Assembly: GCA_037952775.1 (NCBI GenBank)
Contig: JBANAY010000003.1
Coordinates: 5,270,001 to 5,334,000, forward strand
DNA length: 64,000 nucleotides
Reading direction: 5' to 3'
Origin: Clonostachys chloroleuca
Taxonomy: Eukaryota > Ascomycota > Sordariomycetes > Hypocreales > Bionectriaceae
The notes beneath the pieces are model-generated. The model saw nothing but the letters and a program-made list of their open reading frames with translations, was not told the DNA's origin and made no database searches. This document shows positions 32,553 through 51,736 of this stretch, one piece after another (position 1 is the stretch's first letter; every line of letters starts with the position of its first letter). A program made the translations under genes and the position numbers.

Positions 32553-34586
32553 TCACTTGTATACTTTCACTAATGCCTGCTTCACACCATCCAGTATGGC
32601 TACGACACCTGTTGCCCCAGGGTCCGGAATGCCTGTTGTGGAATCTACTCCATCCTCTGCTCCAACATAAGTGCTACGCCCAAACCTGCTTTGAAGTGTC
32701 TTTGTGTTCTCGGCTCCTACCTGAGCCGCTGCGCGTGCGCCCTCGAACACTTCTAGAACAGACTCATTCTTGGCAGCCAATTCAGCAAACTTGTGGGTGA
32801 AAGGAATCAGGGCATCCATCATGGTTCGATCGCCACATCGAGCAGCTGTGACTTGTTCTAGACTCCGCAGGCCGTGTGAGAGACCAGCGGAGATAGTGCT
32901 TAAGCTAGCACCCTCGGAGCCAGATTGGAGCGCAATGTTGGATGCGAAGGCAGTCATGAAAACGGCATATAGGGCGCCTGATGTGCCACCCATGCTGAGT
33001 GATAGTAAATCGGCGATTTCGAGCATGCCATGAGAGAGACTTGAGGTGTTGATTGTGTTATCTTCAAGGGCTTTGATGATGGAGGTGGCACCATCCACGA
33101 GGGTTGTACCGCAATCACCGTCGCCAAGTATGGTGTCGTTGCGGGTGATTTCAGGCTCAGAAAAAACAAGCAATTCGTGAATGGACTTTAAAATAGTCTC
33201 AAAGAGAGATTCGTCGCCTGAATATACTGTTAGTCCCTTTTAGGTTACTGAAACAAGGAACAGAGAAGTGAACATACAAGGGACACTAGGAGTATCTTGG
33301 CTAGGCTTTCCATCCTTTGTGGACACGTCGCTCTGGGACGCGGAAACCGGAGATTCCCAAGTAGCCTTTGCTAGATGACTTGGCCAGCCAACAGCATCTG
33401 TACTTTCATCAAGATACTTTATAATGGTGGGCGAGTGCTTGCTCGCCCTAGGCAGGCTAAGCAGAGTGATGCTGAAACCAGGGCAGTTCAATGCTGATAA
33501 GAAAGTACCACAGTACACTCGAACAGGCTTTAGTCCGTACGTGTTATGGAGCTGAGAAGTTATCTCATTCGTGATGGCTAGCATTTCCAGAGCTGAAAGA
33601 CTTCCAAGGTTGTTGATCTGGACCACAATGTCTGTCATGTCCGCCTTCGGAGGCGTGGCAATGTAGTTGCGCTCTGGATCTTCGTCCAAGAGGTTTGAAA
33701 GCAGACCTTTGACAAGATCTTCAAGACTAGGGCGAGGACTAATGCGCCTGCTTCCAGGCTCGTTGTGAATACCGATACCGATTTCAATCTCGTCGTTAGC
33801 CAAACGGGAGTTATTTGATGCTTGGCCTGGGATTTGACAGCCATCCAACCCTAGGCCAATGGTTCCCATATTGTCCATGGCAAACTCGGCAATTTCCACG
33901 ATTCCATCCAAGTCTACTCCATCTGATGCAGCAGCACCTGAGATCTTGTGGATGAGGGTGGTGCCTGAAAGACCACGTCGGCCGACCAATGCTGACTTAC
34001 TTCGGCCTATGGACACGTCGTCTGCTACAACGAGAAGACGGATAGGCTGGGCGGTAGCCAGGCGAAAGCGATCGGCCGCTAATGTGAAATTGAGCTTATC
34101 ACCAGTGTAATTCTTCACAATGATGAGTGTCCCATTGGGAGACTGAATGTGTCTCAGACCACACTCAATCTGGGCTGCGTTTGGTGAGGCAAAGATAGAA
34201 CCACAGACAGCGGCATCAAGCATATTGGTTCCGACAAAGCCGGCATGTGCAGGCTCATGGCCAGAACCACCTAGAACACGCCAGGGTTAGATCAATTGCG
34301 TCTCATGCAAGATTTGGAAAGAAAAATCAGCACCATACCTCCGCTCAGAATGGTCACTCGCTGTTGCCTATCGGGGGCATCTCGATACACAACTATTTCA
34401 GAGGGGTCAATTAGTTTGTTGATCCTTTCATAAGTGGCAAGCATTCTACTTGCTCTTGTACTTTTCATTGAGGCGTAACGAAGGGTGAAGATTCAGAAGC
34501 CCCTGAAGACCGCCATGAAGCGTTGCAGCGCCATCGGTGACAAAGCTGCGAGTCTTCTGAGCTAGAGAATTACCCTCTCCTGACAT
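32553..34586 (-). CDS. Dihydroxyacetone kinase (ATP-dependent DhaK-DhaL type)
   Basis: Phosphorylates dihydroxyacetone or a related triose/tetrulose with ATP in the cytosol. Inferred exons 34586-34454, 34392-34339, 34270-33278 and 33217-32553 give 614 residues, the usual length. The first intron is a GC-AG intron (donor A|GCAAGT, 61 nt); only this splice restores the family N-terminus (LRLNEKYK then IVVYRDAPD). The DhaK domain holds SGGGSGHEPAHAG near residue 60, KNYTGD, and GIGIHNEPG with the substrate-binding His231. The C-terminal DhaL domain holds GDGDCGTT and GGTSGALY. Diverges from the Dabb gene across a promoter with a CGG-N7-CCG site; first gene of the proposed catabolic cluster. An erythrulose or other ketose kinase role is an alternative. 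Confidence 0.94.
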
Positions 34587-35201
34587 GATGGGCACTGGTG
34601 ATTTCTCAAAAGGAGGCTATGATTTTCTAGATCTGGGGCGCGGGGAGACTAGGATAAGGGGCGCGTAGAATGGGCCCGCGATGGATTTGGCTATATACCT
34701 GAGATATGCCCACTTCAAAGCATCCCATCCAATAATGTCTGAGAAAACCGAATAAACAAGCCCGAAATATACCATGATGGCATTTTCTATTAGTGGTACC
34801 ACTTGGATTTAGAAACCCACCGACTCCGGAGCATATGCGGCTTCCAATTTCTGAGAAGAGCCCACGAATTGTTTCTCAACGTGTCCTCGGGCTTTCGGTA
34901 ATTGCGAAGAGGTGGCTCAAGATCGGCTCAGTGCCGATTGCTAGCCTCGCCGCTTCTCAGATGTTCGGGATCTCGGGGACCATCGGCTAGTAACCCCCTT
35001 AGCGGTGTCCTGGCCAATCTCGATGGGAAAGTTGATAATCCCAGACTGTTTAGTCAGGGTTGTAGGTCGTTCATTGTTCTTTATTACCGGTGCTCCTTTT
35101 GTATTTCCCATTCCATCATTCTGAGGAAGAATCAACAAGCTGACGTTCAATCGTTTTCGACGAATTTCCAACCCAAGCATTTCAATTTCCCAGCTACAAC
35201 C
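34587..35201. promoter_or_regulatory. Divergent promoter: dihydroxyacetone kinase and Dabb gene
   Basis: 615 bp between two start codons facing away from each other, long enough for shared control. Contains one CGG-N7-CCG palindrome at 34924-34936 and, nearby, a direct CGG-N7-CGG at about 34974-34986. Confidence 0.6.
34924..34936. promoter_or_regulatory. CGG-N7-CCG palindrome (candidate Zn2Cys6 site)
   Basis: CGGCTCAGTGCCG, flanked by T and A so that the symmetric core is TCGGC...GCCGA, the same core as most other sites in the cluster. Confidence 0.55.
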
Positions 35202-35744
35202 ATGACTCTCATTCATATGGGTATGTGATCAAGCGGAAGAATGACTTTATCTCTGGAATTCAAGGCTGATCTGGCATTTACAGTGTTTTTCAAGTTCCGG
35301 GCCGATGTGTCCGAGGAGCACAAGCAGACATTCGTACGCGAACTGAAGAAATTGAAGCACCTCCCTTGTGTCAAGGACAACCGCCTGATCGTCGGTGGTC
35401 CTTCCGTTACCGACCCCATTGAGCGGAGCAAGGGCTTCGAGTTTGCTCTCCTCAGTTACCACGAGAACCGTGCGGCTCTCGACGAATACCAAGCTAGCAA
35501 AGAGCACACATGGTAAGATGACCCAGTTGCTTGCCTTGCTCGAGAGAAAGTCGACCGCGCAACTAACCAATCACTCTACAGGGTGACACAAACCTACATG
35601 TTCCCTTACAAGGAGGATTTGTGCCGCTTTGACTTTGAGGTCGACCCTGAGGATGAATACATGTGCCCAATTACCGCGCTTTCAAAATTGAGTGGCCTAC
35701 AAACCCCCACTGAGGCCCCAAAGACGCCCGAGACTACGAATTAG
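35202..35744 (+). CDS. Dabb (stress-responsive A/B barrel) domain protein
   Basis: Exons 35202-35220, 35284-35512 and 35582-35744 give 136 residues. The first exon has only 19 nt (MTLIHM then V split); the typical Dabb start (M-x-x-H followed by a strand VFFKFRADV) is restored only with this splice. The later part (SKGFEFALLSYHENRAALDEYQ) matches the family pattern with its late helix and strand. These small dimeric ferredoxin-like proteins act as cyclases, isomerases or have unknown roles. Here it is divergent from dihydroxyacetone kinase and shares its promoter, so a role in the same pathway (for example handling an unstable intermediate) is an inference. An alternative Met at 35241 inside the intron would give an atypical N-terminus. 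Confidence 0.87.
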
Positions 35745-36568
35745 ATTATAGATAGATTTAAACACTAAATGTATAAGACTTGAGTTTCTATCGTAACATC
35801 CCTTTAAATACTCTCTGTTCCTGTGCTGGCTATCTTGAAGCCGTGATAACAAAACGATGCGGTGAAGTTAGAGCACCAGATAAATCTCCCTGACCGCTTC
35901 CTACGTTATCCACCTAATGGGGAATTGTTAAGAACAAGACGAGCAGCTTCACTTCCATGGCTCACAATTCGTGGGTCCGCTTCGAGTGGCACTCATCGGC
36001 TTATGTCCGGTCCCCTTTCAATGCCCCTCCGCGTCATTCATTATTGCCAGAGCTCCACTCGGGATTTGCCGGTGGAACAACAAGATGCCAACAGTTCGGC
36101 TGTAAGCGTTAGGCCAGCTCGACAGTATTAACGACGAACTATTTGGCCGGGTTCGAGACCCTCGTGATTAAATGCTATACTGGGGGCCTCAAAACCCTTG
36201 ATCCTTCACATGGTGAGTCTGTATGTCACTTGGCTTTGCATGCCCTCTACACGAAACTTCTTGATAATACAGAAAAACAGCGCCAGTAACGGATTCACGT
36301 AGTGTGAGCGTAGAAATTTCACGAATACGGGACGTGATATTTCTATTTCGACTCGAGAAAGATTTGACATCTTAAATCACCAAAGATTTCTTTGAAGGGC
36401 TGTGGTTATTATTGATGTATGCATTGCTATCTATCTCTGCAATATAAAACTCGACTCTTTCCATAGAATGGATAGCAAAATCATGTCTCTCCGGAATTGG
36501 CATCTCCAGGTCCCCGAACCCCCTGATACTCACTCATCTAGAGAATGGGTGGTCCCTAGGGGATCATT
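35745..36568. other. Convergent 3' intergenic region
   Basis: Lies between the ends of the Dabb gene and the first amidohydrolase. No gene seen and no CGG-N7-CCG site, unlike the promoter regions of the cluster. Confidence 0.45.
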
Positions 36569-37708
36569 CTAGTCCTCAGAATACCATTGCCATAGACGCC
36601 GTGGATTGTCGACGAATATTCTGCGCACTTGAGCTTCACTGCCCGCCCAATCCTTGACGATCTCAACAAGTGCAGCATCGTTGATGTTTCTATATTCCTG
36701 TGGGTTCAGACGACCACCCACTGCCGCGTTACCTTCCTTGCTGGAAGTATGAGGCCAGTCACTTCCGTAGACAACCATGTCTGGTCCCGCAGTGATCAGG
36801 CTCTCAGCCACAATACGCATGTCCTCGTACAGAGGTGCGGCCTTTGAGTTCTGGTAAGGCGCAGAGAGCTTGACAAACAGAAGCTTGCGTTGGACAAGGT
36901 CAATCACCTCTGGGAATCCAGTTGACTTGTACGGGTCAATGGTGTTGACCGTCTTGTTGGTCTTGGAACCCACTTCCGCGTGCGCAAAGTGATCAGCGAC
37001 GAATGTTACCCCCAGATCAGGGATGATGGAGTGCAGGCCCACGTATGTCTTGATGGGGATCCAGAGCTGCACGACCCAGTTGCGGGCTTTGGCGATCGCG
37101 GCGTTCTTCTTGACTTCCTCAATGATGTCTTCGTCGGTATTGTTGTTCAAGTTGACACGCAGACCACGGACGCCAACCTCATGCAGCTCATTGAGCTCCT
37201 CTTCCGTTACACTGTCGGGGTCCACAACGGCGACACCGCGGTACTTGCCTTTGAACTGACGTAGAGCGTCGAAGAGGACGGAGTTGTTGGTGCCGTAGAC
37301 GCTGGGCAAGACTATCACCGCGTGATTGACGCCACGTGCAGTCTGGAACTCAGTAGCGTTGGCAACAGTCGCAGGTTTGGGCGTATAATCTATCAAAGTA
37401 GAGATGTTAGCTTGGAACTTCCTTTTCCGGTGGCCAAAGCTCCCGGACAAGATGCCGCCGTGGAAAGCACTGACCTCGATCTTCATCCATAGGGAATCTT
37501 TCGGGATCAATAACGTGGATATGGGAATCCCTACAACAAACAGTTAGCTTCGATCTCCGTACCCAGTGGCGGAAGCGGTCCGCCAGCATTGAATCAGAGT
37601 TTGAAAGGGGAGCTGGGGCCGAGTGACATACCACGAACCGGCGGGGACCCTGGAGCCCATTGTGGCTGCGATCCAAAGTGTAAGGACAATGCTCTTAATG
37701 GTAATCAT
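36569..37708 (-). CDS. Amidohydrolase-family metal-dependent hydrolase (COG3618 / lactonase type), paralogue 1
   Basis: Exons 37708-37632, 37530-37475 and 37389-36569 give 317 residues. TIM-barrel amidohydrolase of the PF04909 type: metal motif H-x-H (WDSHIHVIDPERFP), a mid-barrel His (VADHFAH) and the late Asp in YGSDWPHT. Family members open lactones, such as 2-pyrone-4,6-dicarboxylate and aldonolactones. The first Met would add a hydrophobic leader; Met17 (start 37660, MGSRVPAGSWDSH) is probably the real start because the second amidohydrolase of the cluster also begins with VPAG-x-WD-x-H after a short leader. Diverges from the MFS transporter at 39026. Confidence 0.9.
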
Positions 37709-38064
37709 AATGGGCAGCTAACCCGCTTAAATAGATTTATTTTCACTGGAAGTTGGAAATAGGGGCAAGAAAACCGTGAGTGGTGACACGGAGTAAGACT
37801 TAAGCACTGGTTGCGACCGAGTACTCTTAGTATTTATACCGTCCCTCGGCTACCCATGGACTTCAAATTAGGATTCTGGTTTCATTCACCATTCTGCCGA
37901 CTTAACCGCTCATGCCTTTCCCACTGCTTGCTTCTCCTCACGAGATATCCTAATATGGTAGGGGTTGGGGACAAGGATTCGCGTTCTCATGGGGAAATAG
38001 ACTAGACTACCTCTGCTAAAAAGATGAGGGGAGGATGCCCCTGTACCATCTAGAGAGAATGTGT

Positions 38065-38076
38065 CGGATACATCCG
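38065..38076. promoter_or_regulatory. CGG-N6-CCG palindrome (candidate Zn2Cys6 site)
   Basis: CGGATACATCCG inside a longer near-perfect inverted repeat TGTCGGAT...ATCCGACA at 38063-38080, 357 bp upstream of the amidohydrolase start. Confidence 0.4.
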
Positions 38077-38286
38077 ACACCTGCCAACCAGAAAGCAACA
38101 AATCAACAAGATGCATTATGTGAGAGAGAAAAGACCATGAGCAGGGATAATGAAGACTGGGGGTACGTAATTATCGTCCGAGTTGGCTATGTACCCAATC
38201 TCTGAGTCAAATGTTAACAAGAATTGGCAATGTGATGGTAACCCATGGGACATTCCACCCCACGGTCTCTCTTGGGGATGCTCCTT

Positions 38287-38299
38287 CGGACTAATACCG
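38287..38299. promoter_or_regulatory. CGG-N7-CCG palindrome (candidate Zn2Cys6 site)
   Basis: CGGACTAATACCG, flanked by T and A. Confidence 0.55.
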
Positions 38300-38520
38300 A
38301 TGCGGGGGATTTTGAACAGAGGCCGCCAGTTTTGCGTCTTTGGTACGAAAAACAGGGGCTTGATGCTTGCTCGCCCATGGAAATGGTCTTCATGAGGGCA
38401 AAGTCGAGAACCGACGTTACAACTCGGGTGGGCTAGCAAAGCAAGACTTTGTCCCGATGTTGCATAGGCTGAATGAAATCTATTTGGATCAGCTGATCAA
38501 AGACGAGTCTATGTTGCTCC

Positions 38521-38533
38521 CGGACCAATGCCG
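38521..38533. promoter_or_regulatory. CGG-N7-CCG palindrome (candidate Zn2Cys6 site)
   Basis: CGGACCAATGCCG, 493 bp upstream of the MFS start; spacer close to that at 38287. Confidence 0.55.
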
Positions 38534-39025
38534 GTTCTGGAGCTGGCAGGTGAGGCCAAGAGACTATTGGCCTAGCCCATGAAAGTTATGAATGAAGGGT
38601 AGAGATTTTCATGTAGATTGCTCAATCAAACACGGAGCCTTGGCATCATGTGTTTAGATGCTGCACTACTGGGAATCTAGCCCTTGCGAAGGCCACGCCA
38701 TTGTGGGGAGAACCAGCATCAAAACAAGGTATGCGGGGTTGCCCCGGGCGGGGGACGTGGAGGATGGTGGTCGAGGGTGTTATGAGTCGGTGGGAAGCCG
38801 GTCCATTAGCTGGAGCTCGAAGACGCGAGGAGATGATTCGGAGCCCCAGTTGTTTGCTTCAACCTCAGCGCAAACATAAAAGCGGTCACCTGCCTCCAGC
38901 TGAGTGTTGAGGTTGGCATCAGCAAAGAGTTCAACAACAAACATCAGGCTCTTTCCTGACACCCTTTTCCCCTCGTATTCCTTCTGTGCACAGTTCTACG
39001 TTTCTAATTGAGTTCAAGGCTGAAG

Positions 39026-40672
39026 ATGGCTGCGGACGCGAACGCATCCTCCGACGCCAAGCCGGGTAGCGCCGTCGAGATGGTTGAGCTCAAGGCAGCC
39101 CAGGAGGGCAATCGCCTTGCTCTGGCACAGGCAATGGGCTCAGAGGAATTTCTTGCTGCCGAGAAGGCACTGAAGCGGAAGCTTGACATGCGCCTCTTGG
39201 CTAGTGTTTGGCTCATCTTCGTTCTCAATTATCTGGACAGAGTAAGCCGCCTTACCAACAGATCGTGAGACCACCTATAAACTAACTGCCCTCGTCTCGT
39301 AGAATAATATTGCCGCCGCAAAGGTTGCTGGTCTCGCGGATTCGCTTAAACTGACAGCCGCTCAGTATGCTACCGCAGTGGCTATTCTGTTCGTCGGTTA
39401 CGTTCTCATGCAAATCCCCTCCAACATCTTCTTGGCTCAGCTCCGCCCTTCGCTTTATTTGCCAGCTTGCATGGCTGCTTGGGGTCTGCTCTCTACATTG
39501 ACTGGAGTGGTTCACAATGCTGCCGGCCTGTATGCCTGTCGTTTCTTCCTTGGTTTCGTCGAGGCTGCCTTCTATCGTAAGTAACGGCCTACATTCCTGA
39601 CGGGTTCAGTGATGACTAACTCTTATTTTTCAGCTGGAGCTCTGTTCCTGATTTCGTCATGGTACCGTCGCTCTGAGATGGGTCTCCGCAGCGCTATTCT
39701 ATTCTCTGCTACTCAGCTTGGAAGCGCCTTCAGCGGCCTTATTGGCGCTTGTATCCAAAGTGGTCTCGAAGGTGCTCGCGGCCTCGAGTCTTGGCGATGG
39801 CTGTTCATCATTGAAGGCTCCATCACCATCTTTGTCGCCATCTGCACTTGCGTTATTCTCCCAGATTGGCCTACGACGACCCGCTGGCTCTCTCCCACAG
39901 AGCGTTCCGTCGCTGAGTGGCGCCTGATCCAGGATGCTGGCCAGGTCGATGAGGACGACGAGAACTGGTCTCACGGTTTCAAGCTCGCCTTCAAGGACTG
40001 GCGTCTATACATTTTCGCCGGCATGTTCTTCTGCCTCCAGGTCGCCGCTGCCACCTCCAACTTCTTCCCCTCCGTCGTTCAGACCCTTGGCTACAACAGA
40101 ACCAACACTCTTCTGCTGACCGCCCCCCTTACATTCTGGGCCTCATGATCTCCATTTCAAACAACTGGTCCGCCGACCGTCTCAAGAATTCCTCCTTCCA
40201 CGTCATGTGGCCCCTGGCCCTGGCCATCATCGGCTTCGTCGTCGCTGCTGCGACTCTACAGGTCGGCCCCCGCTACTTTGCCATGATGCTCATGGTTGGC
40301 GGCGGCCATGGTGCCAACGCGGTTGTTTTGGCCTGGACTCAGAAGACGATGCTGCGACCTCGAATTAAACGAGCTGCCGCAGTTGCTTTTGTGAACGCTT
40401 TCGGAAACATCTCCCAGGTCTGGACCTCATACCTTTACCCGGACACTGACAAGCCCCGATACATACTGGCAATGTCGGTAAACTCTGCCTTTGCTCTCGG
40501 TACCATTATTCTTGCTCTTGTGATGCGCATCGTGTTGCAGAGAGCCAATAAGAAGCTTGACTCTGGTGCAGACGTTGCCGATGTGATGAAGGGTGAGGCG
40601 CAGGCCGAGATTAGTGGTGTTACCGAGGAGGAGCGCCAGGCTCAGAAGGCCGCCTTCCGCTTCATCACCTAA
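39026..40672 (+). CDS. MFS transporter of the anion:cation symporter (Dal5/allantoate permease-like) family, with a 1-nt frameshift
   Basis: Plasma-membrane carrier, expected to import an organic acid anion or similar. Exons 39026-39241, 39303-39576 and 39634-40672. The first 379 or so residues read normally (YLDR and NNIAAAKVAGL around the first intron, EAAFYPGALFLISSWYRRSE after the second). At a run of six C at 40123-40128 the frame ends after a few residues (TFWAS stop), while the expected continuation (YILGLMISI, then about 180 residues to the end) is in the next frame. One extra C would give a 509-residue protein of normal family length. The rest is undamaged, so a sequencing or assembly error or a very recent mutation is likely. 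Confidence 0.88.
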
Positions 40673-41063
40673 GATGACAGGAACTTGGACAAGAGATACG
40701 AAGCTTTGTGTACGGTTATTGAATCGAATCAGGTGACTAGGTTTAAGTCGCGTTGAAAAGAGGACGGGCTAGGTTGTAAGATTGTGTTGGAAGATGTCAT
40801 TAGTTTCAGCGAATTAACTTGGGTGGTAGTCTTTTCGTCTTTATGGAACTAGCACATTCAAATACCAATGAACAATGTATTTGGAGACATAATATTCCAT
40901 ATCTTCTTTGCTTAGCTCTGATTTGTCTATGTCAAGATTCCATGTGAACATGCCCTTTTTCAGATCCTCGGCCTCATTTTGCTCTCAAATTCAAGCATAT
41001 CTCTTGTTCCGAGGAGCTCGTTCTGTTTTGTTCATTTATTTCTTTAAATAATGTACATAAAAT
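40673..41063. other. Convergent 3' intergenic region
   Basis: Between the 3' ends of the MFS and Zn2Cys6 genes; AT-rich near the right end, no gene or palindromic site seen. Confidence 0.45.
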
Positions 41064-43470
41064 TTACACATCGCCAAAGGTCGGATAATTTGCCTGATCA
41101 ATCCATCCCAAATCAAACCACGAACTCATATCCCCCAACTCCATATAAAATGAACTAAAGTCCACGTTGTTGAATTCATTCGGGTTATCAAACTGGTTCT
41201 CCGGTGGGAAGAACCCGTCCGTATCAGCGTTAGCCACGCGCGTGCCGTCCTCATTCGCCCTCCACTCCGACTGGTGCATCATCATCAGCGAATGGCCAGC
41301 TTGTACTTCAGTCGCCTGCTTCTCTACCCGGCTGCGCCAAAAGGCCATGCTGGTGGCTACGAGCTTGTCAAATTTGTCGAGGGAGTCCGCGGCCACGCTC
41401 CACGTCTTCCCCAGATGCCGCAGGAGCGAGGAGCACTCTGCGGCGTTGCTTGTGGTGGTCTCTATGCCGACTTCTCGTAGGAGACTTGGATTGATCCATA
41501 GGCAGTAAAGGAATGTAATGCCGCTCACGAAGATCTGGTGTGCGGTGAGCCAGCTGTTGTTGAGTTTGCGGAATCGCTGGAGCTCTGCGGAGATTAGGAT
41601 GGTCTTCACAGCACTGTGATAACATGTCCTCCAGGAATCCAATGTGGGCTGCGCTACTGCAGGCGATGGCCGATGAAGAAGCATCAAGCACTGGTGATAC
41701 TTGAGTTCCAGGCTGCGGGTGGGAAAATCAGTTGTACTCCGACGAGACTTGTGCCTTAGCTGCTGAATCGACTCGGCATAGAGTTTGTCGCAGTGCTCAT
41801 GCACTGTTTGCTGCCACTTGGGAATATCGGTGGGCCAGGGAAATCGATCAGGGAGGCTGACGACGCGGTACAACGTCAACTTGATCTCTGCAACCACGCG
41901 GTCAAACGTTAAAGAATAGTGGGACACGACATATGAAGGAACAGATAGTCTGGCACGCTTCGGGCTCGTTGGCCCGTCTGAGACCTCTGTCCGTCCGTTC
42001 GAAGACGGTAGGGAGTCCTCACCTCCCGGGAAGGGCACATCGATCGCTTCATCCCTCAGTGTTAGTGGTCGGCCCAGCACAACTGCCAATGTCCGCTCGA
42101 TGGAGTATGTTGACCAAAAGATACCACTCCTGAGCGTTCGTTTCGTTTCCAATTGTCGCTTCTGCTGAAGGCCAATGTCTTGTGGCTCCTCTAACCATTT
42201 TCTCTGGAAGCCAAGATCAAGACAGCTTGCAATCAAGTTCGCGGTCAAAAACCACGCGTTGGGCCCATTAATGAAATTGAAGCTGCATAGTGTCAACAGC
42301 AGCATGATCTGAAGTCCCTCGATACTGTCGTGCAGAGCAAGGCTGTCTAAGCGAGACATGGCGGTAGCTAGGTACCTCCCAGACAGGAAATCCGTTGATA
42401 GACGAGACTCCAGTGTTCGTGAACCAAGGGCAATGATGAGGAATATCTGTACAGATGCAATTGGTGACAGACAAGACTCCATATCAACCAGCCTAGGCAT
42501 ACCCTGCGCGCTATCTAGCGAGAAGATATTCTGCAACCACTCGTGCACTGCGTCCTCATCAAGGAAAGGGTATATCGGTTGGTATGTCTCGAAGTAGGCG
42601 TCTACAAAATGTTGTAAGTCGGCTTCGGAAGTCCAATCTGGGGGGAACGGTTGTGCGTCATCGTCGTGGTTTCCTTGTGCATTCGTTGAAGGAGGCGTAG
42701 CCCAGCATGTTGCTAGACCTTGTGACTGAGGGATAGCTGAAAAGATCAACCGTGCAAAAGGAACGCCGGAGGATGGGCCAAGGTACTTAGACTCTTTCGA
42801 GTTGGCGAGTGAGAGGAGGCCAACTTCATGTGCTAGAGGCTCATTGGGTTTGATCTGTGTTGATGGAGCTGGGCTCGCTGTATTACCATCGAAGCCAGAG
42901 TCATAGCTGTTCTGGAGAAGTGGATCGACATTATTATTCGACAGTCCGTGACCTTGCAGCTGGATTTGGGAATGGGAGGAAGCGATTGTTTGTATTGGGG
43001 TGCCCGTCGGAGGATATTGCTGATGGTTCAGATCGATAGGCTGGGCGGTGATAGCAGGAGCTTCGCTGAGCTTCTCAGGGGCCACTTGTCGAAGGGCCTC
43101 TTCAAGCCAGCGAAGACGATTTTCAACTTGATTCAAGTGGCTATACCCGCTCCGCCAAGTAAGAGCACAGTCAGCAACGGTGGCTAAGAAAACACAACCG
43201 CTCTGTGGTTGGATAGACGCACCTTAGTCCTCCGGCTGTGTTAAGGGCTCCGGGACGGATGCAGCTGCGACCTACGCGGGCGCAGCTGCCACAAGCGGGC
43301 TGCTGATCATCACATCGCGTCTTCTGCATGCGGCAGCGAAGACATGCCGTCCCCTTCTTCCGACCAGGCGCTGGAGTCGGTCCCGTTGTGGGCGCCGGTG
43401 CTTGGGTGGGTGGGGACGTCGGTTTCACCAGAACGCGCTTTGGTGGCTCCTCCTGCTCATCCATGATCAT
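41064..43470 (-). CDS. Zn2Cys6 transcription factor, candidate regulator of the cluster
   Basis: Exons 43470-43223 and 43140-41064 (intron 82 bp) give 774 residues. The zinc cluster is complete: Cys43, 46, 53, 60, 63 and 70 with spacing x2, x6, x6, x2, x6. A coiled-coil-like linker follows (QVENRLRWLEEAL, just after the intron), typical of dimeric members that read CGG-Nx-CCG palindromes. The central fungal_trans-type domain is visible (SGIFWSTYSIERTLAVVLGRPLTL). The N-terminal 40 residues are Pro-rich. It diverges from the Ldh2-type dehydrogenase across 478 bp carrying two CGG-N7-CCG sites, so autoregulation together with the pathway is plausible. Specific inducer unknown. Confidence 0.92.
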
Positions 43471-43708
43471 TCTCCCTTAAAATCTCGGCCCCGTACAATT
43501 CTCCAGATAGGAGCTTGGTTGTTGGATCGGGGTTGGGTGCGAGAAGTGCGGGATGATGGCTGGGGAAGAAGGGGGATGCGGATGCCAAGGGGAAAATGAC
43601 CGATATCTAAACTCACGACCCGGCAATTCCCCGAGTAGAGGACATCATTCAAGTCGGGTTTTGCACAGGCACGCGACCCTGAAAAGAAAATGTGGCTATT
43701 TAGTGACT

Positions 43709-43721
43709 CGGCTTTATGCCG
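43709..43721. promoter_or_regulatory. CGG-N7-CCG palindrome (candidate Zn2Cys6 site)
   Basis: CGGCTTTATGCCG with flanking T and A; 228 bp upstream of the dehydrogenase start. Confidence 0.6.
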
Positions 43722-43751
43722 ATGGGTGAGGCCACTCAAACGTCATCTTAG

Positions 43752-43783
43752 CCGGAGCTATCCAGAAATCGGGGTAGCTCCGG
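43752..43783. repeat. Inverted repeat / potential hairpin in the regulator promoter
   Basis: CCGGAGCTA at 43752-43760 pairs with TAGCTCCGG at 43775-43783 across a 14-base loop. The right arm overlaps the CGG-N7-CCG at 43770-43782. Confidence 0.6.
43770..43782. promoter_or_regulatory. CGG-N7-CCG palindrome (candidate Zn2Cys6 site)
   Basis: CGGGGTAGCTCCG; spacer differs from the other sites, so this is a weaker candidate. Confidence 0.4.
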
Positions 43784-43948
43784 TCGAGGGATGGCATTTG
43801 ACTCGAACTAAGGTGAGGGGAAAAAGAAAAAGTAGCTATATCAAGAGGAAATTGGGGTAAAAGGAGCTGAATAAATCGAGCATCATCCCGGATTCCTCTA
43901 CCCTCTCTCAACCATCACGACATTCCTTGAAGCACCACTAAATCAACC

Positions 43949-45084
43949 ATGGCTTCTCGATACTACGCTAACCCGGCGGAGGCCAGGACCTTTGCCAAGG
44001 CTCTTCTAACCAAGTCCGGTCTTCCTGAAGACCATGCCGAGTTGATGACCAAGTGCCTGGTTGAGGCTGATACTCGTGGTGTGGTATGTAGAAAATTCGA
44101 GGCCATTCCATAGCTCTTCTCAGCCTGCTAACTAAATCTTTTTAGGACACTCACGGTCTTGCACGATTGCAACAATATGTTGAGCGCGTCGGCAGTGGTC
44201 TCGTTAACGCCAGTGCTAACATCCAGATTCACGAGAAGACCCCTGTTGCTGCTCATGTCGATGGAGACAACGGCTTCGGTTTCATCGTGGCCTCCAAGGC
44301 TATGGAAGATGCTATCCGCCGTGCCAACACCTATGGCATTGGTATTGTCACTGCTGAACACTCGAACCATTTCGGCATGGCTGCCACATACGTCAACCAG
44401 GCTCTGGATGCCGGCATGATCTCCCTCGTCTTTACCAACTCGGCCAAACAGATGCCTCCCTTCGGTGGAAAGGAGACTCTTCTTGGTATCTCCCCATTTG
44501 CCGCTGGCGCTCCCAGCCAAAGCGAAGTCCCATATGTTCTCGATATGGCCCCATCCGTGGTTGCCAAGGGCAAGATCAGGCGTGCCGCTCGCCGCGGAGA
44601 GAAGATTCCCTTGGGCTGGGCCTACGATAAGGACGGCAAGCCTACAGAAGATGCGAACGAGGCTCTGAACGGCTCCATGGCCCCAATTGGTGGGCCCAAG
44701 GGCTCTGGTATTGCCATTCTCATGGATATCATGTCTGGTGTCCTCTCTGGCGCTGAGTTTGGCGGTACAGTTGGTGACCAATACAAGGAAGCTCGTCCCC
44801 AGAATGTGGGACATTGTTTCATCGCCATCAAGCCCGATATCTTCATGTCGGCTGAACAGTTCCGTGCTCGCATGGACACTTTAGTGCAGCGCGTTCACGG
44901 GGTAACGCCGGCTGACGGCTTCAAGGAGGTTCTCTTCCCAGGTGAGCCAGAGTACCGCCTAGCTGTTGAGAGGACAAAGCAGGGCCTGCCTTTCGCGGAT
45001 GCCGAAAAGCAGATGTTTGAGGATATGGCAAGCAAGTATTCTGTCACTCCTCTTGCTCTGTCTACCGAACCTCTGAATCTGTAA
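43949..45084 (+). CDS. Ldh2-family (malate/L-lactate/ureidoglycolate type) NAD(P)-dependent dehydrogenase
   Basis: Cytosolic 2-hydroxyacid dehydrogenase/2-ketoacid reductase unrelated to classical MDH/LDH. Exons 43949-44083 and 44146-45084 (62-bp intron) give 357 residues, normal for the family. Characteristic motifs are DTHGLARL (46-53), EHSNHFG with His117 and His120 (active-site region), NSAKQMPPFGG, IPLGWAYDKDGKPTED and GGPKGSGIAIL (cofactor region). Bacterial members reduce 2,3-diketogulonate or oxidise malate, lactate, sulfolactate or ureidoglycolate, so the exact substrate cannot be read off. Its place in the cluster suggests oxidation of the acid made by the lactonase-like amidohydrolases, or reduction of the keto acid after cleavage. 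Confidence 0.93.
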
Positions 45085-45544
45085 ATATATATCTTTATGA
45101 GTTGATGGGGGGAAAATAATTAGACCAATGAACCAACATACCAAATGTTAATAATATGATCACGCGTGCTTCACATTTGATGTTAACAAGCCCCTTGTGG
45201 TTGTGAACCTCTTTATGCAATTTTCTCTCTGGCCATTTATGATTAAACAAAAATACAAAATGCACATATCTACAAGGTACGCTACATGGATACACCCTTC
45301 TAACACTTAGGGTGATAGCTACAAAGACTAAAATATGATCTATCAAGCGTTCTCAATTTAGAGGGGAAACGATCAAATACATGGACACAGACGGCTATCG
45401 TGATTAAGGTAGGCAATAAATTGAACTCAAGATGAATGGAAGAGAGCTCTCTAGGTACTCGTTGGTCCGCACAATCGAAACTTAAGATGGCCAGACGAAA
45501 GTATTCTCATGGTAGATTTTATATCAAATTCTTTTACTCATTGC
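45085..45544. other. Convergent 3' intergenic region
   Basis: AT-rich spacer between the Ldh2-type gene and the RraA gene; no gene or palindromic site seen. Confidence 0.45.
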
Positions 45545-46394
45545 TTATTTCTTTCCGCGGAATGTAGCAAAGGCCTCTTCTACCGACATGCCGCCCTTGA
45601 TAGCCTCGGCGCACTTCTCATCGGCCGACACAACCTTGGGGATGATTTCCAAGACCTGCTCGGCCAGGTCTGCCGGTAGCACCACCACACCGTCCTTATC
45701 AGCGATGATATAGTCGTTCGGGTTGATGGTGGCCTCCTGGATGGAGGATTGCAGCTGGATCGGAACGCTGACCTGAGAGGGAAAACAGACAGCACCTCCA
45801 GCTGTGGTTCCGTGAGTTCGGGCAAAGAGCTGTTTAGTCACAATTTAGAAATCAGCTAGCTTTGAATTGCTCTATTATTGGCTTACAGGGAACCCAAGAT
45901 CGCGGTGCTCCTGAAGATCACGGACAGAGCCGTCGATGACCACACCAGCGGCGCCCAGGGCCTTGGCTCGGAGAGACATCAAACCGCCGTAGCACGCATT
46001 GATATGAGGAGCTGGCTGAGAGATGAACACGACAGCATCGCGGGGAATTTGGTCAATCTAACATGTCAGTGATATTCATCAATTCTTCCCAATTTACTTA
46101 CATAATTTCCCTTCACCTTGGGCGCAGATGTGTTTGACTTGGGCTCAAACTTGACTGTGAAAGCAGGTCCAACAATTTTGGTATCACCGGTCACAAAGTC
46201 GGGAGAGTAAAGATTAATTCCCTCGAGGAAGCCCCCGTGGGCGTGGCCGAGCTTCGACAGTCCATCAGACACCTACAGCTCGCCTTCAGCATCAGTAACA
46301 CAAGTATATCAAGACTCCAAGAATTGGACAGCTAACTCACGTCGCAGCTGGACCACTGCTTGAGGCGATCGATAATAGATTCGGAGGCTGACAT
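45545..46394 (-). CDS. RraA-like aldolase/decarboxylase (HMG/CHA aldolase or oxaloacetate decarboxylase type)
   Basis: Four exons (46394-46341, 46272-46102, 46057-45887, 45829-45545), all in phase 0, give 226 residues, the normal RraA-fold size. The metal/pyruvate motif is present: GGLMSLRAKALGAAG and VIDGSVRDLQEHRDLGFP with Arg121 and Asp122, followed by LFAR. RraA-fold enzymes with this motif are divalent-metal class II pyruvate aldolases that cleave 4-hydroxy-4-methyl- or 4-carboxy-4-hydroxy-2-oxo acids, and also decarboxylate oxaloacetate. Introns are small (44-68 nt). Diverges from the class II aldolase with two palindromic sites between them, so co-regulation is likely. Confidence 0.92.
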
Positions 46395-46566
46395 GGCAAG
46401 TGTTGTGAGTGTCTCTGCCTGTATTTTGTTGGTGCTGGATATCTTGTTCACGACAATCCGAAGATCAGAACGTAGGATGCATCTTTATCAAGGAGTTATT
46501 ACGGACTCGATGCCTGGAGCATGCCGCTAGCAGAATCGTAAAACAGCAACCCAAACGCCCCGAAAC

Positions 46567-46579
46567 CGGCCACAAGCCG
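46567..46579. promoter_or_regulatory. CGG-N7-CCG palindrome (candidate Zn2Cys6 site)
   Basis: CGGCCACAAGCCG; 165 bp upstream of the class II aldolase start and 173 bp from the RraA start. Confidence 0.65.
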
Positions 46580-46595
46580 TCTTGCCCCACGACCT

Positions 46596-46608
46596 CGGCC
46601 TGAAGCCG
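46596..46608. promoter_or_regulatory. CGG-N7-CCG palindrome (candidate Zn2Cys6 site)
   Basis: CGGCCTGAAGCCG; nearly the same as the site at 48110 and 29 bp from the site at 46567. Confidence 0.65.
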
Positions 46609-46743
46609 GGAGACTACCCGCATTGGAATCTGGGAAAATAAAAGAATCAAATACAACGAGCACAAGGTCAGTCTTGGAGATCTATTGAACTGGCTCCCGG
46701 TAAAGGTTTCTTCAGTCGCAGAATTCATTATTCACTATTCACG

Positions 46744-47737
46744 ATGTCAACTTTCCCTCAGAACAACCGTACATTCCAGATTCTGGACGCAGCAGCAAAG
46801 GGAGGCTATGCTGTGGGTGCGTATAACTGGTAAGATTGGATTAGTCAAGCCAAACAACTAAAAGAGACCAGGATCTAATAATACTCTCCTAGTTACAACG
46901 ATGACGGCGTGATTGCTGTGATTCGCGCCGCCGAGGCCACCAACTCTCCCGCCATTATCCAGCTCTTCCCCTGGACTCTCAAGTTTCAGGGTGAGCATTT
47001 TGTTCAATATGTCATCTCGGCTGCACACGCCGCTAAGGTGCCTATCGCCGTCCACCTGGACCACTGTATCGAGCCCGAGGATGTCGAAAAGGCCTTGACG
47101 CTCCCCTTTGACTCGATCATGGTCGACGCGTCGATTCACGAACCTTCCGAGAATATTAGACGATGCAAGGAGATTGTCCAACGCGCCAACGCAAAGGGCA
47201 TTTCCATTGAGGCTGAAATGGGTCGTATTGAGGGCGGAGAGGATGGTCTTCCCACGGTCGATCTGGACACGATTCTCACCACCCCACAGGAGGCCGAGGA
47301 GTTTGTCAGGGAGACTGGCGTTCAGTTTCTGGCTCCCTCTTTTGGAAATGTTCACGGCCACTATGGCCCTAACGGTCCTGAAGGATTCTGGAGACTTCCA
47401 CTGTATGTTGAGGTCTAGCCACACTGATCACGGGAACATCTTGGCTGACAAGCACCATAGGTTGATGGATATTCACAAAGCCGTTCCTAACGTACCTCTT
47501 GTTCTCCACGGCACACACGGTGTCTCTGACGCGCTCTTCCGCACCTCCAGGCAGCACGGCATGGTCAAGATTAATCTAAACAAAACCGTCCGAGACCCAT
47601 ATACCGATTTCATGGCGGAAAAGGCTGGCGAACTTGAGCTTACGATCCTCAAGATGAAAGGTGTAGAAATCTACCAGAAGTCTATAGAGAGAGTGATGCA
47701 TGAGTTTCTCGGGTCGGCGGGTAAGGCTAGTTCTTGA
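46744..47737 (+). CDS. Class II (zinc) aldolase of the fructose/tagatose-bisphosphate aldolase family
   Basis: Exons 46744-46829, 46893-47402 and 47461-47737 give 290 residues. Class II aldolase signature HLDHC places the catalytic Asp85 and zinc ligand His86; further zinc ligands are His183 (GNVHG) and His215 (VLHGTHG). EAEMGRIEGGED follows the family pattern. At 290 residues it is closer to the tagatose-bisphosphate/ketose-bisphosphate subgroup than to the 350-residue glycolytic fungal enzyme, so it is probably catabolic rather than housekeeping. Such enzymes yield dihydroxyacetone phosphate and an aldehyde; dihydroxyacetone kinase in the same cluster would feed the same pool. Substrate unknown. 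Confidence 0.92.
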
Positions 47738-48654
47738 AAGTTGACCGAGTTCATAAGAAATTTGACATAAGATCATACAAGTTAGACAGTAAATACAAAA
47801 GAGACATGGTACAATGGAATTTCTCCTCAAGATGACCGAATAATCGAATGATCTTGAGATCATCCGTCCAGCGCCTTGAGGGAGGCTTGAGGCTCAAGCA
47901 TTTCAAAGGTCTCATGAACATCTCATCATCTAGTTCGATTAGTTCTATATCCTCCAAAATCCCGGGCTCGGGGATACAATCCGTGACCAATGACGTTGAA
48001 TCATTTCACGTTACCATGTCAGCCGGGACCTGAATCGAATTAGACGAATAGGCTCCACGCTGCTTCGGTGCAGCAGTGACATACCATCATTCTTTGGCCT
48101 CGTGATCATCGGCCTGATGCCGATTCCACTCCATTATACCCAGTTCCCCACAGCCAGACCCCAAATCTTGACTCGATACCCCATGGTACCTGTTGTCATT
48201 AGCCCGGAGAAACCCGGAAAGCCGGTTTTGTTGGAGCTAGAATGTTTGCTCGGTGAAAGGGGATTCCCGATCACGTTGTTGGGGAAAGCTTCGTCTAGGC
48301 TTTCAGAACTCTCTCAGAACAGTTGTGCCGTGCGATGTATTCAACGAACCCCATCTGGGCACATAACCTCATTCATAAGATTTAAGTCAAATAATCAGAC
48401 GGGGTATGGGGTCCATTCCCATTCCCTGCCATCTTTCCCTCCTGATTGGTAAGAGGAAACCAGAACCTGGTCAGGTCCTGCTGGGAATCCGACCCTTCAA
48501 ATAGGCCCCTTAATCCCCGTTGCAATCTGCCTCGATCTTTCCTCTCACCTCCGATCATCTTTGATGATTCATTAGGCATTGTGAGGCTCACAACCCCTGC
48601 CAAGAAGTCCAACGACACGCAAGCTTTGCAAGGACAATCTACGCATCCGCCGCC
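47738..48654 (+). promoter_or_regulatory. Promoter region of the sugar-porter gene
   Basis: 917 bp between the aldolase stop and the transporter start. One CGG-N7-CCG site at 48110. No gene supported; the leader before 48655 is C/T-rich. Confidence 0.5.
48110..48122. promoter_or_regulatory. CGG-N7-CCG palindrome (candidate Zn2Cys6 site)
   Basis: CGGCCTGATGCCG with flanking T and A; 533 bp upstream of the sugar-porter start. Confidence 0.6.
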
Positions 48655-50345
48655 ATGCCTCTCATAGATAAAGCCGTCTATGAGAAGACCCCCAAGGAGG
48701 TCATCTCGTGGAAGATTGTGGCATACTGCATCATTTTGTCCTTTTCGGGTGCTCTTCATGGTAAGAACAAAACTCCTCTAAGAACTTGGCACCAATGACA
48801 CTGTGCTTACCCCTGCGTTTTCGTAACCCAGGCTTCAACACTGCAAATATCTCGGGCGTTCTCGCCATGAAGTCCTTCAAGAGCTACTTTCAACTGAACA
48901 AGATGGATGAAAGTGATCTCGCCAACTGGACTGGATGGATTACGTCTATTCTCATCCTTGGGTCTGGTCTCGGTTCCATCACTTGCGCCCCCGTCACTGA
49001 CCGACTGGGCCGACGTGTTTCCCTGGCCTTCTTCTCCGCTCTTTTCATCGCCTCCGCTGTCCTCATGACTGCCAACCCCGGCGGCAGCAACGGACGTATC
49101 GAATTCCTCGTCGGTAGAGCCCTTTCGGGCTACGGCTCTGGAGCGGCCAGTGTCATCGGTCCAGGTTACATCGCCGAGATTGCACCTCAGTCAATCCGCG
49201 GTGGTCTAACCGCCCTATACAACGCCAATACCATGTTGTCCGTCGGTCTAGCTTATTGGATCAACTATGGCTCTCTTCAGAACATTTCCGACGGAACAAA
49301 CACGCAGTGGCAGGTTCCCATGAGTGTTCAGGCGCTACCTGGTGTGATTCTCATTCTTGGAGTCTTTCTTATCCCCGAGTCTCCCAGATGGCTCCTTACC
49401 CGAGGCAAGGTTGAGCGAGCTGAGCAGTCTCTGGAGACCCTCCGTTCACTCCCTCGCGATCACGAGTTTGTCCGCCAAGAGTTCAACACTATCCAGGCTT
49501 CTCTGGAAGAAAAGGCTGTTCAAACTGGTATCAAGGGATTTTTCCACGAGCTAGCCTCTCCAGGTATCCGCAAGAGGATGGCCATGGTCATGATTATTCA
49601 AGTTGGCTTCCAGTTCTCCGGTGGTAACATCATTACATACTACAACACGTCTATCCTGTCTTCCATCGGACTCAAGTCTTCCTCTACCAACTATCTCTTC
49701 TCCGGTCTCTATGGCTTGATCAAGTTTATTGCCGTGTTACTGTACTGTCTATTCCTAGTCGATCGGTTCGGTCGCCGCAGGGGTTTGTTTATTGGTTCTG
49801 GCCTAATCATTTTCTCTCTCACCTACATCACAATCTATCTCGCCGTTGCGAACCCTTCCTCCAGAAATACCACCGGTCCTGCTGGCTGGATTGCTGTAGT
49901 TTGCATCTACATATTTGCACTGGGTTACGCAATTTCTTGGGGCACCGTCCCTTGGATTATCAACGCCGAGGTCTTTCCCAATCGGCTTCGGTCTACATGC
50001 ATGTCTATTTGTATCACATGGCAGTACCTGGTAAACTTCGCCTTGTCGCGAGGTCAGCCCAACATGGTCATCGCAATGCACGCGTGGGGTCCCTTTCTTC
50101 TCTTCACTCTGTTCACTACCATGATGACAATTTACTGTTTCTTTGCCTACCCAGAGACCAAGGGCCTATCTATGGAATCCATGGACGAGCTCTTTAACAT
50201 GCCTTGGTACAAGGTCGGACGCGCCAGCTTCAAAGTCCTGGAGTCTCAGAAGGCCGCCAACGCTTCCACAGAAGAGAAGGAGACCGTGGACTTTGCAGAG
50301 GATGTTTCCCATCCAAATGGAACTGCTCAGGGAACTAAGAATTAG
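48655..50345 (+). CDS. MFS sugar porter (hexose/lactose-permease-like transporter)
   Basis: Plasma-membrane sugar:H+ symporter with about 12 transmembrane segments. Exons 48655-48760 and 48832-50345 (71-bp intron after the first hydrophobic segment) give 539 residues. Sugar-porter signatures are DRLGRR after TM2, GRALSGYGSGAASVIGPGYIAEIAP, PESPRWLL after TM6, DRFGRRRGLF and YPETKGLSMESMDELF after TM12. It sits between the class II aldolase and the second amidohydrolase, with a cluster-type palindrome upstream. Together with the anion-type MFS carrier at 39.0 kb it suggests the cluster imports both a neutral sugar-like compound and an acid form. Specific sugar not predictable. Confidence 0.94.
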
Positions 50346-50809
50346 AAACCGCTCCAGCGGTGCTATCATAAGGGCAAGGAAACATCATCTTTGTGGTGTT
50401 TGTATATTGGTATTGTAGAATAGTTTGAAAGCAGGACGGCGTCGTTGGTCCTGGTCTCATTCTCTAAAAATGGAAGTATTCTTTTGGCAGAGTAAATAAA
50501 AGGGCAAACCTTCATTCCCCATATACGTCCCAATCTCCCTCAATTATCTGAAGACTGGTAGGTATCGCTAAAACACAGACATATTATCACGCAGGACGGA
50601 AAGAGGTCATACCCATGCAAAGTCCTTCTCTTGCTATATCACCGTAATCTCAGGTTCCTTGATGAGTATGAATGAGTCTTTACAAAGCCACTACAAACAG
50701 TAATAAATTTATAAACTGAATGAAGCCCAATTTAAATGGATCAGCTATTCGCACAATTTATTGGGAATACAACTGGTGCCACAACCTAATGCTACATAAT
50801 ACTCAGATT
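50346..50809. other. Convergent 3' intergenic region
   Basis: AT-rich spacer between the sugar porter and the second amidohydrolase; nothing else seen. Confidence 0.45.
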
Positions 50810-51736
50810 TTACGAAGAATAATCATACAGCTTCCGAGGGTTTGCTACCCACAAGTCCGTCCACTCTTCCTCGGTGAGCCAAGTGCTCAATGATTGGATC
50901 CAAGTCTTGTTGTCAATCTTCAAGAAAGGTTCAACCTCATCCTTGTTCCTCAGATGTCGATCCTCGTGTCGCTGAGTGTGAGGCCAATCGCTACCCCAAA
51001 CAACACGCTTCGGGTTCGCGTGAACCAGCCCTGTCACAATATCACGGAGATCATCAAAGGTAGGATCAGCACGAGAATTCCGATACGGTGCTGAAATCTT
51101 CATCCAGACGTTTCCATCCGAAATGGCACCCAAGAGCTCTTTCCAGCCCGGTTGACTAATGGCCAGTTCAACCCCTTCCGGCGTCATGCTGGCCGCCTTC
51201 ACGAGCGCCATATGGTCAATCACAATGGGCAGACCGAGGTCCTTGGCGACCTCGCGAATTTGCTTCCAGTATGTGAGATTTGGCTGTTGCATTTGCACGC
51301 TCCAGCCATTGCCATTGGGCTTCCAGCGCAGGAGCCTGTTGGCAGTTTGCTTGATCATGGCGATTTGCTTGTCCAAGTCGTTCATGGCCTGTGCTTTGAA
51401 AAAGTCCAGTCGGACACTCCGCACGCCTGCGGCATGGTACTTATCAAGCAACTCATCTGAGATGCTCTGCTCATCTATGACACCAATACCACGAGCGGAC
51501 CCCTTGAACTGCTCCAGGTAGTACAAGAGAGAAGTACAGTCAGGGCCGTATGAAAGGCCGTGGGCAATGCAAACGTGCTCGACGCCAATGGACACCTCGA
51601 ATTCTCTGAGTTGATCGAGGGTAGCTACTGAGGGAGTAAAGTGCCGCCCAGCAGCAAAGGGGAATCGCTCCGGCTCAAAGATGTGATGGTGCGTGTCCCA
51701 GGCACCAGCTGGGACTGCTTTGGCAGGATGTGTCAT
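50810..51736 (-). CDS. Amidohydrolase-family metal-dependent hydrolase (COG3618 / lactonase type), paralogue 2
   Basis: Intronless; from the Met at 51736 it encodes 308 residues (MTHPAKAVPAGAWDTHHH). The frame is open to a Met at 51808, but the extra 24 residues are Arg/Pro-rich and unlike the family. Metal-binding residues are visible in WDTHHHIFEPERFPF, VIDHMALV and WGSDWPHT. The protein is related to the first amidohydrolase at 36.6-37.7 kb (shared VPAG-x-WD-x-H, PERFP, KISAPYRNS/KLSAPYQNS and GSDWPHT). Two different lactonase-like enzymes at the two flanks of the cluster suggest two lactone or ring-opening steps, or one enzyme for each of two substrates. A CGG-N6-CCG palindrome lies 167 bp upstream. 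Confidence 0.92.
   Translation of the reverse strand: MTHPAKAVPAGAWDTHHHIFEPERFPFAAGRHFTPSVATLDQLREFEVSIGVEHVCIAHGLSYGPDCTSLLYYLEQFKGSARGIGVIDEQSISDELLDKYHAAGVRSVRLDFFKAQAMNDLDKQIAMIKQTANRLLRWKPNGNGWSVQMQQPNLTYWKQIREVAKDLGLPIVIDHMALVKAASMTPEGVELAISQPGWKELLGAISDGNVWMKISAPYRNSRADPTFDDLRDIVTGLVHANPKRVVWGSDWPHTQRHEDRHLRNKDEVEPFLKIDNKTWIQSLSTWLTEEEWTDLWVANPRKLYDYSS

Follow-up and report, generated by a model that had tools for sequence, protein, structure and literature searches.

To our knowledge, the catabolism of sugar acids in fungi has been described for few substrates. The fungal L-rhamnose (LRA) and D-galacturonate (GAA) pathways follow a lactonase or acid route that ends in an aldolase, and are controlled by dedicated Zn2Cys6 factors. 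The erythritol cluster of Yarrowia is likewise regulated, and contains a tetrulose kinase of the DAK family. A study on galactaric acid in Aspergillus niger reports fungal sugar-acid catabolism that was found via co-induced genes (PMC5153877). Here we describe a stretch of 64,000 nucleotides of Clonostachys chloroleuca DNA (the window; C3:5270001-5334000 of a 59.4 Mb assembly in 4 contigs), in which ten adjacent genes on balance appear to form a single, jointly regulated unit that would break down a candidate class of substrates, an unusual sugar acid or the corresponding lactone. The genes encode a dihydroxyacetone/ketose kinase (DAK), a Dabb-domain protein (Dabb), two amidohydrolases (AH1 and AH2), two MFS transporters (MFS1 and MFS2), a Zn2Cys6 transcription factor, an Ldh2-type dehydrogenase (LDH2), an RraA-fold aldolase (RraA) and a class II aldolase (ALD2).

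The kinds of parts in this cluster are known, and their combination and regulon look undescribed. Compared with the LRA and GAA pathways, the cluster lacks a sugar dehydrogenase, a dehydratase and an LRA4/GaaC-type aldolase, and has different aldolases and a kinase. The Yarrowia cluster is not known to contain lactonase, RraA or Ldh2 genes. The seven selected A. niger galactaric acid genes in Table 1 of PMC5153877 are predicted to belong to other families, and none of the seven in that table is a DAK, RraA, Ldh2 or amidohydrolase gene; galactaric acid was therefore rejected as the substrate. Bacterial oxidative hexuronate catabolism (Gli) resembles the cluster through AH1, of which Agrobacterium Atu3138 was the best structural fit (19-23% identity in structural alignments; the predicted AH1 model is weak, with a predicted local distance difference test score of 67.5). 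We take Atu3138 (PDB 4mup) to be the galactarolactone isomerase Gli. In contrast to the Gli pathway, the uronate dehydrogenase, cycloisomerase and KdgD families are absent from the ten genes, and isomerase activity of the cluster proteins is a prediction. A search of the open-access literature found no described fungal cluster with this gene set, which does not show that it is unpublished.

Gene models were obtained with a finder that takes splicing into account and had been trained on long frames from the window itself, and two N-termini were set by hand. Positions 32553-51736 are filled by ten complete models, in the order DAK, Dabb, AH1, MFS1, Zn2Cys6 factor, LDH2, RraA, ALD2, MFS2 and AH2. 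Their introns are canonical, and AH2 is intronless. The Pfam families are Dak1 with Dak2, Dabb, Amidohydro_2 (twice), MFS_1, Sugar_tr, Zn_clus with Fungal_trans, Ldh_2, RraA-like and F_bP_aldolase. Hence, the intact models and Pfam agree with the preliminary description of this DNA, which had named ten contiguous genes of these families. The public annotation numbers DAK as V2G26_004227 and RraA as V2G26_004233, with five numbers between them, equal to the gene count in the window. The cluster RraA protein is 100% identical to the annotated C. chloroleuca protein, and DAK has 595 aa in the public annotation versus 614 aa here, with 97% identity across the whole query. Other calls of the gene finder in this span were antisense shadows of the same genes (e.g., 44006-44814, score 9.1, opposite LDH2), and a 54-aa frame at 38780-38944 scored at noise level. 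A secondary-metabolite cluster was rejected, because Pfam detected no polyketide synthase, nonribosomal peptide synthetase or terpene synthase among the ten genes.

The cluster promoters share the inverted triplet pair CGG-N7-CCG, a common regulatory element of the kind by which fungal catabolic gene clusters are recognized. It occurs 13 times in the 6,227 bp of the ten cluster intergenic regions. Twelve copies are in promoter-bearing regions, all six of which have a site, and one is in the four tail-to-tail regions. The fifteen other inverted spacings between N0 and N15 occur only 0-4 times each in the cluster intergenic DNA. Shuffled promoters, in which two-base blocks but not all dinucleotides were preserved, attained CGG-N7-CCG in all six promoter regions in 0 of 300 cases. 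Pieces of the same genome contain 27 copies per 200 kb, and against this background 12 copies in 4,088 bp have a Poisson probability of 1e-12. No copy was found in 16,221 bp of intergenic DNA to the left of the cluster, where boundaries were set by our own gene models and the stretch 15197-23665, which may hold unseen genes, was included. The left 32.5 kb as a whole has two copies, both within gene models, and within the cluster genes the element is found at 37570 (AH1 intron) and 44898 (LDH2). The inner bases of the sites lean towards the palindrome CGGC-N-T-N-A-N-GCCG. The site string, searched in three spellings, had no match in the open-access literature.

Raw counts do not discriminate for every triplet pair. 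In 10-kb control pieces that include coding DNA, direct CGG pairs reached up to 17 copies and inverted pairs up to 10, and across the whole cluster span direct CGG-N15-CGG (16 copies) exceeds inverted N7 (15 copies). The intergenic comparison is more trustworthy, since raw counts in coding-rich DNA can run high for some triplet pairs. We therefore base the case for N7 on intergenic DNA, on the comparison with the 15 other spacings and on the shuffled promoters.

That none of the six promoter regions lacks the element is in keeping with a single Zn2Cys6 regulator dedicated to the cluster. The Zn2Cys6 protein of the cluster has a zinc cluster of the form C-x2-C-x6-C-x6-C-x2-C-x6-C and matches both PF00172 and PF04082, and we infer that it binds the CGG-N7-CCG sites. 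Through these sites, it would act on each of the six promoter regions, including the one in front of its own gene. Furthermore, the genome searches turned up only one further Ldh2 gene (C3:~19.33-19.34 Mb; L027:4503-5816; 48% identical), which is preceded by three CGG-N7-CCG sites at 5761, 5785 and 5804, all within a 56-bp stretch and 185-228 bases upstream of its modelled start. This suggests that the second Ldh2 gene may be a distant member of the same regulon.

Co-localisation in other fungi was traced with five genes (DAK, AH1, LDH2, RraA and AH2). Protein searches provided the best 120 of 160 matches for RraA, 120 of 7803 for DAK, and 120 of 765 for a chimera of LDH2, AH1 and AH2 fragments, and contigs were matched among these 360 listed proteins (P0323 has no contig). 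At least 32 contigs were found on which two or more of these genes occur together; one is that of the window, 28 come from named fungi and 3 from metagenomes. Including the window's own contig, LDH2-RraA is shared by at least 15 contigs, DAK-RraA by at least 11, DAK-LDH2 by at least 10, AH2-RraA by at least 6, AH2-LDH2 and AH2-DAK by at least 4 each, AH1-DAK and AH1-RraA by at least 3 each, AH1-LDH2 by at least 2, and AH1-AH2 by at least 1. In Cylindrodendrum hubeiense all five genes follow the window order within nine gene numbers (DAK g7867, AH1 g7869, LDH2 g7872, RraA g7873, AH2 g7875). Only one number (7874) lies between RraA and AH2, versus two genes in the window, which may mean that Cylindrodendrum lacks ALD2 or MFS2 or that one of them was mis-modelled. 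Fusarium lateritium has closely linked genes numbered 9039 and 9046, 6-7 gene numbers separate DAK from RraA in three species (C. chloroleuca among them), and RraA adjoins LDH2 by gene number in five fungi: Pestalotiopsis fici, Xylaria multiplex, Colletotrichum noveboracense, Fusarium nematophilum and Cylindrodendrum.

The contigs shared in 28 other named fungi and the common promoter element indicate that the grouping is more than chance. Both lines of evidence support the core of the preliminary description, namely a catabolic cluster that is undescribed and has a Zn2Cys6 regulator of its own, for which co-localisation in other fungi had been put forward as a check; of the five genes probed, at least two stand on a common contig in at least 28 other named fungi, so that co-localisation is conserved as in fungal catabolic gene clusters. 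Related RraA, Ldh2, Dabb and class II aldolase proteins are often listed as hypothetical protein, malate dehydrogenase or ribonuclease E inhibitor, and the cluster would give them roles. A linked set in about twenty genera, together with a predicted regulator site, offers a direct way to the substrate.

Several observations weigh against a single co-regulated unit. The fungal tracing covered five of the ten genes. Close linkage by gene number was seen in only 6 of the 28 other named fungi, and a shared long contig is weaker evidence, not proof of adjacency. Seven of the shared-contig DAKs (those of Aaosphaeria, Fonsecaea, Penicillium canescens, P. brasilianum, Aspergillus costaricaensis, Pyrenochaeta and Exophiala) share just 41-49% identity with the query, values that fall within or close to those of paralogues in the C. 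chloroleuca genome. The Thozetella RraA is on a different contig from DAK, LDH2 and AH1, the DAK of X. multiplex is on another contig, AH2 lies elsewhere in F. nematophilum and Niveomyces, and RraA and LDH2 are on different contigs in Aspergillus avenaceus and A. wentii. The direct pair CGG-N8-CGG has a raised count in the promoters too, with 9 sites spread over 4 of the 6; shuffles attained its promoter count in 1.7% of cases and its total in 0 of 300, so N7 is perhaps not the sole signal. Inverted N6 is weakly raised as well (3 of 6 promoters, attained in 3.3% of shuffles). None of the ten genes encodes a sugar dehydrogenase to make the lactone, and in the seven proteins scanned all NCBIfam models scored below cut-off except the dihydroxyacetone kinase model.

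This kinase model is TIGR02361, against which DAK scored 608.7 bits (cut-off 574.95). Both the DhaK and DhaL domains (PF02733 and PF02734) are present, and a GIHNEPG stretch, whose His has a role in these kinases, aligns to solved dihydroxyacetone kinase relatives. The ketose kinase of the preliminary description is thereby narrowed to a single-chain ATP-type dihydroxyacetone kinase by family, with dihydroxyacetone or another ketose as the predicted substrate. ALD2 matched PF01116 with 280.3 bits, and of the 20 NCBIfam models that it matched none was above cut-off (TIGR01859: 201.3 bits, cut-off 343.05). The RraA protein keeps the metal/aldolase motif: G100-X20-R121-D122-X2-E125 is unchanged across all 22 proteins of the alignment, and corresponds to what we take to be the exact form of the HMG/CHA aldolase motif, G-X20-R-D-X2-E/D. 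Two motifs exist for the RraA-fold HMG/CHA class II aldolases according to PMC5065237. Fourteen aligned fungal relatives of LDH2 are 71-87% identical to it. AH1 and AH2 had been described as paralogous lactonase-type enzymes; both are indeed Amidohydro_2 proteins of the COG3618 type, with the TIM-barrel fold of LigI, but they are only 33% identical to each other. In two Hypoxylon records (P0337 and P0343), a Dabb domain (80-85% identical) is annotated as fused to the AH1 orthologue. The joint coincides with the start of the second AH1 exon, so this hint may reflect a gene-model merge, or possibly a real fusion.

We tentatively propose an undescribed pathway, patchily distributed in Pezizomycotina, that these families could build. 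MFS2 and/or MFS1 would import the substrate, as their families suggest. AH1 and AH2, perhaps with Dabb, would isomerise and/or hydrolyse a lactone to a hydroxy acid, in line with their fold, and LDH2 would oxidise the 2-hydroxyl to a 2-oxo acid, as in its family. From a 4-hydroxy-2-oxo acid, RraA might then release, by retro-aldol cleavage, a C3 acid of the pyruvate type together with an aldehyde or ketone. DAK as the phosphorylating enzyme and ALD2 as the one that cleaves a ketose phosphate, in either order, could convert dihydroxyacetone or a ketose to triose phosphate, and thus pass it to glycolysis. In this proposal, the divergent class II aldolase works with the kinase, one Zn2Cys6 activator acts through CGG-N7-CCG, and the second Ldh2 gene is a distant member of the regulon.

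Whole-genome family searches, together with tblastn on 20 pieces of the same genome, found four further loci at which a DAK family member has a class II aldolase close by (C3:0.95M, 13.29M and 14.31M, ~1 kb apart each, and C4:2.22M, ~5 kb), and RraA family members beside an amidohydrolase at two (C3:5.117M and 30.84M). Each half of the cluster thus recurs alone, and the window joins two recurring modules. This recurrence, and the separate contigs in Thozetella and X. multiplex, would suit two independent modules with a shared neighbourhood and regulator, in which DAK and ALD2 act on one compound and the amidohydrolases, RraA, LDH2 and MFS1 on another, for instance the halves of a conjugate. 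Such independence is unlikely, since the same promoter element stands in both halves and the short DAK-RraA distance by gene number is kept in three species. An organosulfonate pathway would instead make LDH2 a sulfolactate dehydrogenase, and ALD2 and DAK an aldolase and a kinase for a sulfosugar phosphate. For LDH2, the top NCBIfam model (NF040650) and the top match among solved structures are both L-sulfolactate dehydrogenases, and the sole NCBIfam model listed for AH1 and AH2 is 4-sulfomuconolactone hydrolase (NF042924). However, the scores are far below the curated cut-offs of 500 bits (LDH2 281.1, AH1 134.8, AH2 108), the models are perhaps no more than the closest members described so far, and the ten genes include no glycosidase or sulfonate-specific enzyme. 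Catabolism of a sulfosugar or sulfolactate is therefore very improbable.

The preliminary description had offered two routes: conversion of a sugar lactone and acid up to aldol cleavage, which we favour, and breakdown of 2-pyrone-4,6-dicarboxylate (PDC), which we disfavour; neither is proven. In a PDC-like aromatic route, one amidohydrolase would open a pyrone-type lactone, the other would hydrate or open the product, and RraA would cleave 4-carboxy-4-hydroxy-2-oxoadipate to pyruvate and oxaloacetate. The bacterial LigI/LigJ/LigK route resembles the cluster in its combination of a same-family amidohydrolase and an RraA-fold aldolase, and LigI Arg124 is kept in both AH1 and AH2. In contrast, the positions of LigI Arg130, Arg183 and Arg217, which presumably bind the PDC carboxylates, are read from the alignments as N, H and Q in AH1 and as A, L and R in AH2, so that, with Arg124 counted in, AH1 lacks three and AH2 two of four substrate arginines compared. 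RraA scored only 73.5 bits against TIGR02798 (CHA aldolase, ligK_PcmE; cut-off 304.5), and Pfam detected no ring-opening oxygenase among the ten genes. Moreover, the cluster has an extra kinase, F_bP-type aldolase and Ldh2 dehydrogenase (DAK, ALD2 and LDH2), which have no role in such a route. A PDC-like route is hence quite improbable, and the sugar-acid or lactone pathway remains our preferred reading.

The nearest bacterial relatives of LDH2 were located by one LDH2-profile scan of bacterial contigs, which yielded 13 loci, several of them short stretches. A weakly matching amidohydrolase stands beside LDH2 at two of the 13 (L029 and L041), and an RraA match lies within the stretch at two (L032, 31% identity; L034, 23%). 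DAK or ALD2 matches at E <= 1e-3 were found at none of these loci, several of which are short. Open reading frames were listed for L029, L030, L032 and L041, with neighbours named by eye. L032 has RraA, an MFS gene and a lactonase-like gene (named by eye) near LDH2; its LDH2 has a match at E <= 1e-110 in 1 of 200 of its family (its own genome only), and its RraA at E <= 1e-50 in 32 of 200. Luciferase-like monooxygenase frames also occur in L029 and L032, and no ring-opening oxygenase was recognized by eye among the listed frames of L029, L032 and L041.

Table 1. Genes of the ten-gene cluster and intergenic CGG-N7-CCG sites (window positions).
Feature	Position	Strand	Basis or remark
DAK, single-chain dihydroxyacetone/ketose kinase, 614 aa	32553..34586	-	gene model, Pfam, TIGR02361
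DAK exons	34586-34454, 34392-34339, 34270-33278, 33217-32553	-	gene model
CGG-N7-CCG, DAK/Dabb bidirectional promoter	34924..34936	.	
Dabb-domain protein, 136 aa, 3 exons	35202..35744	+	gene model, Pfam
CGG-N7-CCG, Dabb/AH1 tail-to-tail region	35997..36009	.	sole intergenic site outside promoter regions
AH1, COG3618-type amidohydrolase (lactonase / lactone isomerase type), 301 aa	36569..37660	-	
AH1 exons	37660-37632, 37530-37475, 37389-36569	-	alternative upstream ATG possible near 37708
Four CGG-N7-CCG (38287, 38521, 38734, 38788), AH1/MFS1 bidirectional promoter	38287..38800	.	
MFS1, anion/allantoate-permease-type MFS transporter, 488 aa, 4 exons	39026..40672	+	Pfam; subtype by eye
Zn2Cys6 transcription factor, 774 aa, 2 exons	41064..43470	-	gene model, Pfam
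Three CGG-N7-CCG (43621, 43709, 43770), regulator/LDH2 bidirectional promoter	43621..43782	.	
LDH2, Ldh2/malate-type NAD(P) 2-hydroxyacid dehydrogenase, 357 aa, 2 exons	43949..45084	+	gene model, Pfam
RraA-fold class II pyruvate-type aldolase, 226 aa, 4 exons	45545..46394	-	gene model, Pfam, motif
Two CGG-N7-CCG (46567, 46596), RraA/ALD2 bidirectional promoter	46567..46608	.	
ALD2, class II (F_bP_aldolase family) aldolase, 290 aa, 3 exons	46744..47737	+	Pfam; nearest solved relative PDB 3pm6
CGG-N7-CCG, MFS2 promoter	48110..48122	.	
MFS2, sugar-type MFS transporter, 539 aa, 2 exons	48655..50345	+	gene model, Pfam
AH2, second COG3618-type amidohydrolase, 308 aa, single exon	50810..51736	-	
CGG-N7-CCG, AH2 promoter	51863..51875	.	

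The left neighbour of the cluster, at 28244-31572, is a large unrelated protein (924 aa model), a partial frame of which has an FG-GAP-like match slightly below the Pfam cut-off. Further to the left, at 594-6433 and ~26 kb from the cluster, are a GMC oxidoreductase gene and a mannitol-dehydrogenase-family gene, for which no link to the cluster was shown. On the right, the cluster is bordered by an AT-rich block at 52500-64000, which starts ~0.8 kb past AH2 and has 12-31% GC in 2-kb steps. Its ratios resemble those of repeat-induced point mutation (TpA/ApT 1.2-1.5; (CpA+TpG)/(ApC+GpT) 0.02-0.63).

Elsewhere in the genome, MFS1 has relatives at four loci, one of which (C3:5.117M) is beside an amidohydrolase-RraA pair. 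The same locus also has an aconitase-family gene, a relative of the sugar-type MFS transporter and a Gfo/Idh/MocA gene. The pair at C3:30.84 Mb (L019) has two neighbours of note: a monooxygenase gene that Pfam classes as luciferase-like, and a possible flavin monooxygenase gene, named by eye and without a Pfam match. Class II aldolases have many copies in the genome (L009/L010, L011/L012, L013/L014, L015/L016, L024 and L026), four of which are near a DAK gene, and this looks like an expanded, unexplained family of ketose-phosphate enzymes. Short-chain dehydrogenase genes lie near the aldolases at C3:0.95M (Pfam), and at 13.45M and 14.41M (by eye).

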